In this document: positions 51,258 through 56,359 of the stretch, piece by piece
Layout of the letters: the number at the start of each line of letters is the position of its first letter
Numbering within the stretch: position 1 is the first letter of the stretch
Source of the DNA: Hylemonella sp.
GTDB taxonomy: Bacteria; Pseudomonadota; Gammaproteobacteria; Burkholderiales; Burkholderiaceae_C
Length of the DNA: 64,000 nucleotides
Direction: 5' to 3'
Assembly (NCBI GenBank): GCA_030680575.1
Contig: JAUXVI010000024.1
Location: forward strand, 1 to 64,000
Made by a program: the position numbers and the translations under genes
Notes under the pieces: generated by a model
The model's input: only the letters and a program-made list of their open reading frames with translations
The model's database searches: none
What the model was told of the DNA's origin: nothing

Positions 51258-53873
51258 ATGTCATCCAAGCGATTCGAAACACTGGCCATTGAGCAACTGC
51301 GCAAGCTGGCAGGTGGCAACCTGTTCATCAAGCCGGAGCCTGACGCCCAGTACCATCTGGGACAGCGTTACGCCCTGGGGACGGATGTCGAAAAAAACGA
51401 CCAGGAAGCGGCCTATTGGTTCCGCCGTGCTGCAGACTGTGGCCACGCCGAGGCGCAGCGCAACCTCGCGTTTGCGTATTTGCACGGCCGGGGCGTTCCG
51501 AAGAATGAAGCCGAAGGTATTCGCAGGCTGCGCATCGCCGCCGAATGGAACGATGCGCCCGCGCGGCGTCAACTCGGCTTCCACTATGCCACCGGCTCGG
51601 GTGTCCCCAAGGATGAAAACGAGGCAGTGCACTGGTTTCGCCTGGCGGCCGACCAGGGCGACTGCTTTGCGCAGTACAACCTGGCCTTTGCCTATGCCAA
51701 CGGCCGTGGCGTGTCCGCCAGCCCGCAGGACGCCGTGCGCTGGTACCAACTGGCCGCCGACCAGGGCATGCCGCAAGCCCAGTGTGAACTGGGACTGATC
51801 TACGAGCAGGGCCTCGGCGTGCCGGTGGACTATGAAAAAAGTGTCTACTGGAACCGGCTTGCCGCAGAGCAGAAGTATGCCGAGGCTTGCAGCAACCTGG
51901 GCTGGCTTTATGAGAATGGACTGGGCGTGCCCCAGGACCTGACGCAAGCGCAGCACTGGTACGAAGAAGCCGTACGACAGGATTTTGCGGAAGCGAAGGA
52001 GCGTTTGTCCAGGCTGCAAGAGCGGCGTACGCGTCTGCAGCCCATTCCTGAACACAACCTGCGCGCCGACGACTCCATTGCCGAGTACCTCGAATCCGCC
52101 TTCGCCGACTTTGTCGGGCTGGAAGTGGTCCGGCAGGAGGTCTTCCGCCAGGCCAGCTACATCCAGGTGCAGAAGCTGCGCGCACAGCAAGGCCTGCGCG
52201 TCCCCAGCTGGCCTTCACGCCATCTGGTGTTCCTGGGCAACCCGGGAACCGGCAAGACGACGATTGCCCGCATCATCGCCGGCCTCTACCAGCGGCTGGG
52301 CATCCTGAAGACCGACAAGGTTGTCGAAACCGATCGCTCCGGCCTGGTAGCGGCCTACATCGGCCAGACGGCGATCAAGACCCGGGCCGTGGTGGAGTCG
52401 GCGCTGGGCGGCGTGCTGTTCATCGACGAGGCCTATGCCCTGGCCCGCGAAGGAAGCCAGGACTTCGGACGGGAAGCCATAGAAACGCTGCTCAAGATGA
52501 TGGAAGACCATCGCGATGATCTGGTGGTGATTGTGGCCGGCTACACCGAGGAGATGGAGGGTTTCATCAACGCCAATCCGGGCCTCGCTTCGCGCTTCAA
52601 CCGTTACATCAATTTCCCGAACTACACCCCGGCCGAACTGCTGAAAATCTTCCTGAACTTCTGCAGCAAGCACTCCTACGTGCTGAGCGCATCGACGCAT
52701 CATGGCTTGCAGACCATCTTCAGCCGGGAAATTCAGGTCCAGCGCGAGCGCTTCAGCAACGCGCGTTACGTGCGCAACCTGTTCGAGAAGGTCATCGAGG
52801 CACAGGCCCAGCGCGTATTCGCCATGCCGAATGCCTTGAAATCGGACTTGCAGGCCATTCTTCCGGCCGATGTGGAGCTCGGACTGGGCGAGCCCCTGCC
52901 CGCTGACGACGGCATGTCATCCAACTACGAGGATGTACTGAAAAAACTCAATGGCCTGGTCGGACTGCGAAATGTCAAAAAACAGGTTCAGCGCCTGTTC
53001 GCTTTTGTCCGCCTGCAGCGCGCACGTGCCAAGGCCGGAAGCAAGGTACCCACCGGTTTCTCGCAACACCTGGTGTTCACCGGCAATCCCGGTACCGGCA
53101 AGACCGCGGTGGCGCGCATCGTCGCAGACCTGTACTGCAGCCTGGGGATCATTCCCTCCAACCACATCGTCGAGGTCGATCGCGCCGGGCTGGTGGCAGG
53201 TTATGTCGGCCAGTCGGCCATCAAGACCCTGGAAGTGCTGGAGTCGGCGCTGGGCGGCGTGCTGTTCATCGACGAGGCCTACGCGCTGGCGCATGGCGAC
53301 CATGGCAGTGACTTCGGCCAGGAAGTCATCGACACCCTGCTCAAATTCATGGAAGACCATCGCGATCAACTGGTGGTCATCGTGGCGGGCTACCCCGAGC
53401 CCATGAAGCTGTTCATTGACAGCAACCCGGGCCTGCGCTCACGCTTCAACCATTACATCGAGTTCGACGACTACGAACCGGACGACCTCCTCGGCATCTT
53501 CGATTCCTTCTGCCGTCATTCTGAATACACCCTCGACGCGCCAGCGCGCACCCTGCTGCGGGACAACCTGGCAGCGCTGTTCCAGGCCGGCCGAACCAGC
53601 GACAACGGCCGCTTCGTGCGCAACCTGTTCGAACGCTGCATCGAGGTACAGGCCGAACGGCTGGCACGCCTGGGCGAAAACCCGGGCGCCGATCTGAACG
53701 CCTTGACGGCCGACGATGTGTCGGACGCGCTCCGGGAGGTTCTCGCAGAACTGAACCGCCAGACGGTCGATACGGCCGAACTCACGCGCCATCATCCAGC
53801 AGGTGACGATTCTTTCGTCAGGGACCGTGCGCAAACGCGCCAGTCTCTTCAGACCTTGTCAAAACCTGAATAA
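51258..53873 (+). CDS. Sel1-repeat protein with two CbxX-type AAA+ domains
   Basis: A large 871-residue cytoplasmic protein. Residues about 28-250 form six Sel1/TPR-like repeats (FRRAADCGHAEAQRNLAFAY, FRLAADQGDCFAQYNLAFAY and relatives). Then come two complete AAA+ modules of the CbxX/CfqX/SpoVK group: Walker A GNPGTGKTTIARI near residue 327 and GNPGTGKTAVARI near 609; Walker B GVLFIDEAYALA near 384 and 667; each followed by SRFNRYINFPNY or SRFNHYIEFDDY and an arginine-rich sensor 2 stretch (NARYVRNLFEK, NGRFVRNLFER). The mix of helical repeats and CbxX AAA recalls EccA of type VII secretion. Partners are not evident; the ATG has only a close AAGG. Confidence 0.85.
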   Translation: MSSKRFETLAIEQLRKLAGGNLFIKPEPDAQYHLGQRYALGTDVEKNDQEAAYWFRRAADCGHAEAQRNLAFAYLHGRGVPKNEAEGIRRLRIAAEWNDAPARRQLGFHYATGSGVPKDENEAVHWFRLAADQGDCFAQYNLAFAYANGRGVSASPQDAVRWYQLAADQGMPQAQCELGLIYEQGLGVPVDYEKSVYWNRLAAEQKYAEACSNLGWLYENGLGVPQDLTQAQHWYEEAVRQDFAEAKERLSRLQERRTRLQPIPEHNLRADDSIAEYLESAFADFVGLEVVRQEVFRQASYIQVQKLRAQQGLRVPSWPSRHLVFLGNPGTGKTTIARIIAGLYQRLGILKTDKVVETDRSGLVAAYIGQTAIKTRAVVESALGGVLFIDEAYALAREGSQDFGREAIETLLKMMEDHRDDLVVIVAGYTEEMEGFINANPGLASRFNRYINFPNYTPAELLKIFLNFCSKHSYVLSASTHHGLQTIFSREIQVQRERFSNARYVRNLFEKVIEAQAQRVFAMPNALKSDLQAILPADVELGLGEPLPADDGMSSNYEDVLKKLNGLVGLRNVKKQVQRLFAFVRLQRARAKAGSKVPTGFSQHLVFTGNPGTGKTAVARIVADLYCSLGIIPSNHIVEVDRAGLVAGYVGQSAIKTLEVLESALGGVLFIDEAYALAHGDHGSDFGQEVIDTLLKFMEDHRDQLVVIVAGYPEPMKLFIDSNPGLRSRFNHYIEFDDYEPDDLLGIFDSFCRHSEYTLDAPARTLLRDNLAALFQAGRTSDNGRFVRNLFERCIEVQAERLARLGENPGADLNALTADDVSDALREVLAELNRQTVDTAELTRHHPAGDDSFVRDRAQTRQSLQTLSKPE

Positions 53874-55177: not shown

Positions 55178-56359
55178 ATGAGAATGCGGTTGGAGACATA
55201 CCACTCGATGATGCAGACGGACCTGCAGCAGGTGCCCGCTTGCCGCGGCATCGTGCTGCGCGGCACGGAAGGCATCTCGACCGCCCACATCCACCAGACT
55301 GCGCTGGAGCGGCTCGAAGCCAGCGAGCTGGCCACCCTGGTCCATGCCGAATCGGGTTGCGACAGCCAGGGCAGCTGGGTACGCCTGTGGCTGGACGCCG
55401 CCGCCGTGCAGGCCTGGGCCCCGGGTTTCAACACCCTGCAACTGGCACAAACACTGCAACTCGACACGGTGAACCAAGCGGCCGACCTGTTGCGCGAGAT
55501 CGTGCTCACCCTGCTGATGGGTCCGGTCGCCTTCGAATACCCGAGCATCGACGAACTGGTATCGGCCGTGCACATCCGCCGCAACATCGTGCAGGCGGCA
55601 CGCAAGACCACGCTGGCCTTCGACACCGCCGCTGCAGAGCGGCCTGAGAAATACTGGACCTACGACAAAGCCACCGGCTTCACCATCCTGCCCGGCGTGT
55701 CGCTGATCGACGCCCTGACCCAGGCTACCCAGCCGGAGATCTCCGGCACGATGTACGCCTTCTCCTGCTACCGCGCCACCGAGTACGTGACCCTGCTCGG
55801 CATCGCGCAGGAGTTGGCGCAGAGCAACCCGTCGCTGCTGGCGCAACTGCAGGAACTGTGGAGCCGGCGCGCCATCATGTCGGGCGAATTCCATGAGGTC
55901 TTCCTGCGCGAGCAGGGTTCGATGGAGGCGCCGCTGCCGCCTTTCTACTACGTCCCCGGCGACCGGACCTGGTTCCGCAACCCCGACGAGGCCTCCGCCA
56001 ACGCCTCGGGCTTTGAAGGCTCCTGGGTCATGTACAAGGGCGGCGGCCTGTTCACCAACTTCTGGAAGCACCAGCAGCCCTACACCCTGGTCAGCAAGTG
56101 CGTCGAGATCTACCACTGGCGCCATGGTCTGTACCAGGACGCGCAGGGCGAACACCGCATCGACGAGGTCCGCATCGAGCCGATGATCGAAGCCACGCTC
56201 AGCAACCCGGCCGAGCTGGCGCGCATCATGGCCCTGATGACACGCTACCGCGAACCGCGCGGTGTCTACACCGAAGCCGGTGGTGGCATCGACACCACGC
56301 GCGAGTTCGCACGCTGGGTCCGCCCCGGCACGGCCGACCTGCAACTGCCCACCGAATAA
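55178..56359 (+). CDS. Homologue of Bacillus transglutaminase Tgl
   Basis: A 393-residue protein that resembles the spore-coat protein-glutamine gamma-glutamyltransferase Tgl of Bacillus, as remembered. Shared blocks are VAFEYPSIDELVSAVHIRRN (Tgl has VQFDYHSIAEL then LKLRMN), KYWTYDKATG, YAFSCYRATEY (Tgl YAFECATA, with catalytic Cys) and VPGDRTWFRNPDEAS (Tgl LGDCLYFKNPEF). The Cys is kept (residue 197), but the Glu before it is Ser, and the Glu and His of Tgl active site (WRGEN, FAHG) read FEGSW and FTNFW. It is longer than Tgl (245) by an N-terminal 100 residues and a C-terminal tail. Start uncertain: ATG 55178, 55184 or 55208. Confidence 0.7.
   Translation: MRMRLETYHSMMQTDLQQVPACRGIVLRGTEGISTAHIHQTALERLEASELATLVHAESGCDSQGSWVRLWLDAAAVQAWAPGFNTLQLAQTLQLDTVNQAADLLREIVLTLLMGPVAFEYPSIDELVSAVHIRRNIVQAARKTTLAFDTAAAERPEKYWTYDKATGFTILPGVSLIDALTQATQPEISGTMYAFSCYRATEYVTLLGIAQELAQSNPSLLAQLQELWSRRAIMSGEFHEVFLREQGSMEAPLPPFYYVPGDRTWFRNPDEASANASGFEGSWVMYKGGGLFTNFWKHQQPYTLVSKCVEIYHWRHGLYQDAQGEHRIDEVRIEPMIEATLSNPAELARIMALMTRYREPRGVYTEAGGGIDTTREFARWVRPGTADLQLPTE

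Follow-up and report, generated by a model that had tools for sequence, protein, structure and literature searches.

The gene at positions 55178 to 56359 (+ strand) of the window, i.e., the whole 64,000-nt stretch of Hylemonella sp. DNA analyzed here, encodes a cysteine protein, probably of the Tgl fold, for which we propose, with moderate confidence and from sequence comparisons, a function in cyanophycin metabolism that would depend on the chemistry of Cys197. In the genomes sampled, TGL genes occur almost only in cyanophycin-making bacteria, and their products may therefore modify or break down this polymer. A transglutaminase-family cysteine protein that follows the cyanophycin synthetase gene (cphA) in its distribution is a concrete candidate for the cyanophycinase gap described below or for a new granule function; if this is true, a transglutaminase would have kept its nucleophile while its catalytic partners were replaced.

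Family membership and active site

The reading frame starts with ATG and specifies 393 amino acids. A sequence-only reading had taken the product for a homologue of the Bacillus transglutaminase Tgl in a bacterium that does not form spores, on the basis of four sequence blocks, all of which are found in the protein. The homology is borne out by a match to the Pfam TGL family (PF20085; described as papain-like in PMC10318531), with an E value of 3.7e-33 and 115.3 bits against a gathering cut-off of 23.7, over residues 97 to 364 (55466 to 56269, +). Residues 1 to 96 (55178 to 55465, +) form an N-terminal extension outside the TGL model that has no Pfam match and is in part conserved in close relatives; its total length exceeds that of the Pfam model (245 positions) by 148 residues, in agreement with the about 150 extra residues noted previously. 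Single-sequence searches of the PDB retrieved 7c9j (E 2.1e-6) and 4p8i (E 0.03), the same entries being found at 1e-8 and 2.1e-4, respectively, with a ten-sequence profile. The nearest solved structure by sequence, 7c9j, is a protein-glutamine gamma-glutamyltransferase of 254 aa that aligns to residues 108 to 293 of the query, including the Cys and the GEN strand, but has Glu-Cys and GEN where the query has Ser-Cys and GSW. The Tgl equivalog PRK03187 (NF002869) was the sole NCBIfam family that matched the query at E values up to 10, and the score of 42.3 bits, far under the cut-off of 307, indicates that the protein is not Tgl proper. The nine named relatives found, with identities from 90 to 56%, are mostly from Curvibacter and Polaromonas, plus Sulfuricella and Castellaniella at 56%. 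Curvibacter and Polaromonas, which are the nearest of them, point to a betaproteobacterial host, and the named relatives likewise to Burkholderiales as its order.

According to PMC6490927, Tgl of Bacillus subtilis (BsTgl; 4p8i, PF20085) uses Cys116 as the nucleophile and either Glu187 or Glu115 as its partner; activity is undetectable in the E115A, H200A, and C116A mutants, about 60% of it is retained by E187A, and the tunnel entrances are lined by Trp149, Tyr171, Arg185, Asn188, Phe69, and Trp184. BsTgl numbering was transferred to the query from the PDB alignments and was partly carried over by hand. The two proteins share the TGL domain, the YAF-x-C motif with the Cys nucleophile, the PGD and NPD blocks, and the aromatic tunnel positions, which are apparently still aromatic in a register set partly by hand (F69 to F148, W149 to F238, Y171 to W265, and W184 to F279). 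They differ in the residues around the nucleophile and the tunnel entrance. Ser196-Cys197 (55763 to 55768, +; Cys197 codon, 55766 to 55768) aligns with BsTgl Glu115-Cys116, and Glu280-Gly281-Ser282 (56015 to 56023, +) corresponds to Arg185-Gly186-Glu187, the BsTgl numbers having been hand-counted along the 7c9j alignment. Asn188 is replaced by Trp283, and Phe295 (56060 to 56062, +) stands at the His200 position, in a register hand-counted past the alignment end. The sequence-only reading was thus right about the nucleophile, about Ser instead of Glu before it, and about the replacement of the Glu and His partners. Phe295 was placed with the help of the Tgl motif in that region, and Ser282 occupies the position where NlpC/P60 peptidases have their catalytic His. 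A homologue of Tgl that has altered partner residues and comes from a bacterium that is not a spore former needs a job other than spore-coat cross-linking, as had been argued.

The replacements extend across two subfamilies of relatives. In the main subfamily (57 sequences, query included), Cys197 and Tyr198 are present in 57/57 sequences and Ser196 in 56/57, and Glu280, Ser282, and Phe295 are each present in 56/56 covered rows, one row being cut off by a contig end. In a second subfamily (n = 9), Cys, Tyr198, Gly for Ser196, and Glu280 together with Ser282 are found in 9/9 sequences, with Tyr (seven) or Phe (two) at the BsTgl His200 position. With the later loci included, Cys plus the E-G-S pattern (EGS type, to which the query belongs) occurs in 80 of 90 aligned rows, 68 with Ser-Cys and EGSW and 12 with Gly-Cys and EGSN or EGSS; the remaining 10 rows comprise seven non-EGS relatives (L037, L104, L106, L054, L055, L056, and L057), the truncated L097, and the two-piece gene L156. 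Our own TGL profile missed L055 to L057, which were added to the alignments by hand, as well as L153, which Pfam recognized. In the tree, all EGS types fall into a single clade (82 tips; support, 0.996), within which the second subfamily (13 tips) is supported at 0.999 and the main one (69 tips) at 0.703.

The undetectable activity of BsTgl E115A and H200A (PMC6490927) means that the TGL protein could be inactive, and three residues important in BsTgl are replaced clade-wide. A noncatalytic protein of this kind would use Cys197 and the tunnel for binding, and would coat cyanophycin granules or regulate CphA. However, conservation of Cys and Tyr198 (57/57 and 9/9 each) and of the E-G-S strand (56/56 and 9/9) would be unusual in a dead site, and we regard this explanation as unlikely. 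The converse possibility is that the protein is active as a transglutaminase and joins granule proteins to one another, or proteins to cyanophycin that contains lysine, so that the granule would be hardened as the spore coat is by Tgl. Membership in the TGL family and the aromatic tunnel positions, which appear kept in the partly hand-set register, speak for it, and an accessory role would agree with the absence of TGL from many cphA genomes, but with Glu115, Glu187, and His200 all replaced such an activity seems improbable.

The query has no strongly hydrophobic stretch (top 19-residue mean hydropathy, 1.46; 0.36 within the first 40 residues) and is probably cytoplasmic. By simple hydropathy counts, which are distinct from signal-peptide prediction, a strongly hydrophobic N terminus is found in 0/55 members of the main subfamily and in 6/9 of the second. 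The latter proportion, together with non-EGS TGL proteins that are fused to eCIS_core or lie beside type III secretion-like genes, would favor the earlier suggestion of an envelope or capsule cross-linker or a toxin. Such a role is nonetheless hardly credible for the query, given the lack of that N terminus in it and throughout its own subfamily, a search of phage records for TGL that gave no match, and the genes around it, among which secretion genes were not recognized. Elsewhere, a TGL protein of the same class (L056:7863-9092, − strand) adjoins genes resembling a type III secretion apparatus, going by a visual inspection of the beginnings of the translated sequences, and could be a secreted substrate.

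Co-occurrence with cyanophycin synthetase

Of the 399 genomes sampled from the window's order, 40 (in 26 of 159 genera) had a TGL match, as did 22 of 60 relatives; orders and families are GTDB groups throughout. PF20085 matches numbered 5 among 274 genomes of the class and 4 among 398 of the phylum, each count including the window genome. A plasmid search for TGL yielded one weak Niallia match only. A Bacillus-type Tgl frame on the megaplasmid of Niallia taxi (L037:1342-2253) is missing as a gene from the incomplete PLSDB table and carries RGVN in place of the expected GEN with its Glu187.

The threshold for cphA was 850 bits to TIGR02068, except that fragments were counted in the genus test; the assignment to family strata and the cphA genome list were both compiled by hand. 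In the order sample, cphA exceeded the cut-off in 142 of 399 genomes, namely, in 38/40 with TGL versus 104/359 without it (Fisher test, 9.5e-17, unstratified, for the TGL/cphA pair alone). Stratification by family gave 38 observed versus 27.8 expected co-occurrences (P 1.2e-7). The corresponding values were 37/38 for the EGS type (stratified P 4.0e-8) and 34/36 for TGL genomes that are at least 90% complete (P 4.7e-7). The family sample (132 genomes from 131 genera of the window's family) had cphA in 77 genomes; 19/20 genomes with TGL carried it versus 58/112 without TGL (one-sided P 1.3e-4), as did 14 of the 15 TGL genomes new to the analysis (P 0.0015) and all 19 with the EGS type; G000 (the window genome) and G540 are common to this sample and the order sample. 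Among the 60 relatives, the 22 genomes with TGL had cphA over the cut-off in 18 cases and fragments or split copies in 4, and those without TGL had it over the cut-off in 12 of 38. Within the genus, with fragments counted, the proportions were 18/18 with TGL versus 5/8 without (P 0.02). The three samples overlap in part; the TGL-positive genomes involved are G000, G002, G027, G034, G038, G049, and G540.

Taxonomic hitch-hiking or a genome-size effect could produce such an association around a gene whose true role is unrelated. In two families (f15 and f8), nearly all sampled members have cphA, so that co-occurrence is uninformative there, and most TGL loci are not adjacent to cphA. Against this, the P value of 1.2e-7 is the one that remains after family stratification, and in three families (f213, f214, and f4) TGL is present in 9 of 10 cphA genomes and in 0 of 25 others. 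Moreover, the family sample agrees with the order sample, and cphA adjacency recurs in differing arrangements in several families (see below). We therefore give this explanation little credence and retain a function linked to cyanophycin.

The TGL genomes of the order without cphA over the cut-off are G460 and G616. In the former, the TGL gene is cut by a contig end, with the E-G-S motif beyond it, and is the sole main-subfamily member with Ala for Ser196. The gene in G616 is an eCIS_core-TGL fusion, likewise found in G1140, the exception in the family sample. These eCIS_core (PF13699)-TGL fusions (L106:6269-7621 and L153:2171-4066), from genomes of the same order and in one case of the same family, encode proteins that look like contractile injection system cargo. 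The second-subfamily genes of the order sample (L101, L053, L114, L102, L098, L100, L105, L099, and L103; Gly-Cys, EGSN or EGSS) are in cphA genomes in 9/9 cases.

Genomic neighborhood of TGL genes

Gene maps covered 72 loci, of which 69 came from nonredundant TGL frames and three were hand-picked additions; 18 later loci served for the alignment and the cphA-locus search. In six of the mapped loci, TGL lies near two tandem large genes, and a BLAST check found cphA in 6/69 loci, with an ABC gene in six and a DUF1854 gene in four. Representatives of the neighbors are cyanophycin synthetases, the NCBIfam cyanophycin-associated ABC transporter (NF052233), and a DUF1854 protein (NF052234). Like TGL, the latter two are found beside cphA in the adjacent loci, but they are other families that reside in the cphA locus itself, whereas TGL is usually elsewhere; cphA is absent beside TGL in 63/69 loci (53 of the 69 having at least 4.5 kb on either side) and in 18/18 later loci. 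In L119, the stop codon of cphA overlaps the TGL start codon (ATGA), and in L089 ABC, DUF1854, and TGL genes run in the same direction, with 22 bases ahead of TGL, so that TGL and cphA-locus genes are apparently in an operon twice. In the other four adjacent loci, TGL is convergent on the cphA cluster. With arrangements that differ and several families involved, the cphA-TGL adjacency is not a single block inherited without change. Of the two cphA pairs in the window genome (C26 and C51), neither is near its TGL gene, which is on contig C29. The pair on C51 (L132) is accompanied by the associated ABC transporter and DUF1854 genes, and that on C26 (L133) by an ABC gene up to the contig end.

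Within the window, an acyltransferase gene (PF01757; 56369 to 57421, +) begins 10 bases past the TGL stop in the same orientation, and a Transglut_core gene (PF01841; 53897 to 55009, −), with a leader-like start as judged by eye, is divergent, just as the sequence-only reading had described. The two genes are mostly local synteny: among the 72 mapped loci, 17 have the acyltransferase cluster and 13 that of Transglut_core, almost always in the window's genus and family, with L008 from Sulfuricella as an exception for the acyltransferase. As the clusters hardly extend beyond near kin, both genes were set aside as functional partners and lie outside the inferred system; the recurrent functional neighbor across families is cyanophycin synthetase. 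Farther upstream, the gene at 51258 to 53873 (+) encodes a protein with Sel1 repeats and two AAA domains. It exceeds the NCBIfam thresholds of SpoVK and of EccA alike, probably because the two domains add up. Its SpoVK score was rejected as a link to sporulation, given that EccA is over threshold too and CbbX nearly so.

Possible reactions on cyanophycin

A recognizable cyanophycinase is present in just 2.8% of 903 beta-proteobacterial cphA1 genomes, and cyanophycinase isozymes of unknown kind have been proposed for such genomes because a bacterium with stores of the polymer ought to be capable of using them, as stated in PMC10206079. In our order sample, a cyanophycinase over the cut-off was found in 20 of 142 cphA genomes, which is above the 2.8% of that paper. 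It was present in 2/38 cphA genomes with TGL versus 18/104 without, so that 36 of the 38 genomes with both TGL and cphA lack one over the cut-off; an anticorrelation between TGL and cyanophycinase was not significant (P 0.10). TIGR02069 (cyanophycinase) had no match in the query protein or in the window genome. The known cyanophycinases (CphB/CphE/CphI) act on the substrate that we propose for TGL and also occur with cphA, but they are a serine-nucleophile family unrelated to TGL. The dependence is one-way, since many cphA genomes have no TGL gene: it is present in 38 of 142 in the order (37 with the EGS type) and in 19 of 77 in the family. With TGL in only about a quarter of cphA genomes, it cannot be the sole cyanophycinase or fill the whole gap. 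A narrow literature search, which covered few subscription journals, found no printed link between cyanophycin and the TGL family; cyanophycin and transglutaminase are reported apart, with no link stated, in PMC7522526.

Hydrolysis or remodelling of cyanophycin, in bacteria that are mostly without a recognizable cyanophycinase, is the likeliest single reaction for the TGL protein, with hydrolysis alone being assigned at low confidence. Cys197 would attack an amide in a side chain or the backbone of cyanophycin (or of a granule protein), much as the Gln side-chain amide is attacked by Tgl, and the acyl group of the resulting thioester would then pass to water or to an amine. Transglutaminases act on side-chain amides and isopeptide bonds, which the beta-aspartyl-arginine amide of cyanophycin resembles. 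Glu280, which is Arg in Bacillus Tgl at the entrance for the Gln substrate, may replace the lost Glu as the base or may hold the cationic arginine side chains of cyanophycin; the change from Arg185 to Glu at this entrance would suit a cationic polymer. The idea of Glu280 as a displaced base comes from the exchange of residues between two positions in one clade, perhaps a single evolutionary event.

A more specific and rather speculative proposal is that EGS-type TGL proteins are cysteine-type cyanophycin hydrolases or side-chain isopeptidases, unrelated to the serine cyanophycinases, which would cover part of the missing beta-proteobacterial degradation, with one form in the cytoplasm acting on stores and another, exported, acting on polymer beyond the cytoplasm. 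The exported-looking N terminus that is frequent in the second subfamily fits a cytoplasmic granule badly and counts against a function in cyanophycin metabolism. One second-subfamily copy (L156, in G1139) has a TGA within its frame; the same genome also carries an intact main-type copy (L155).
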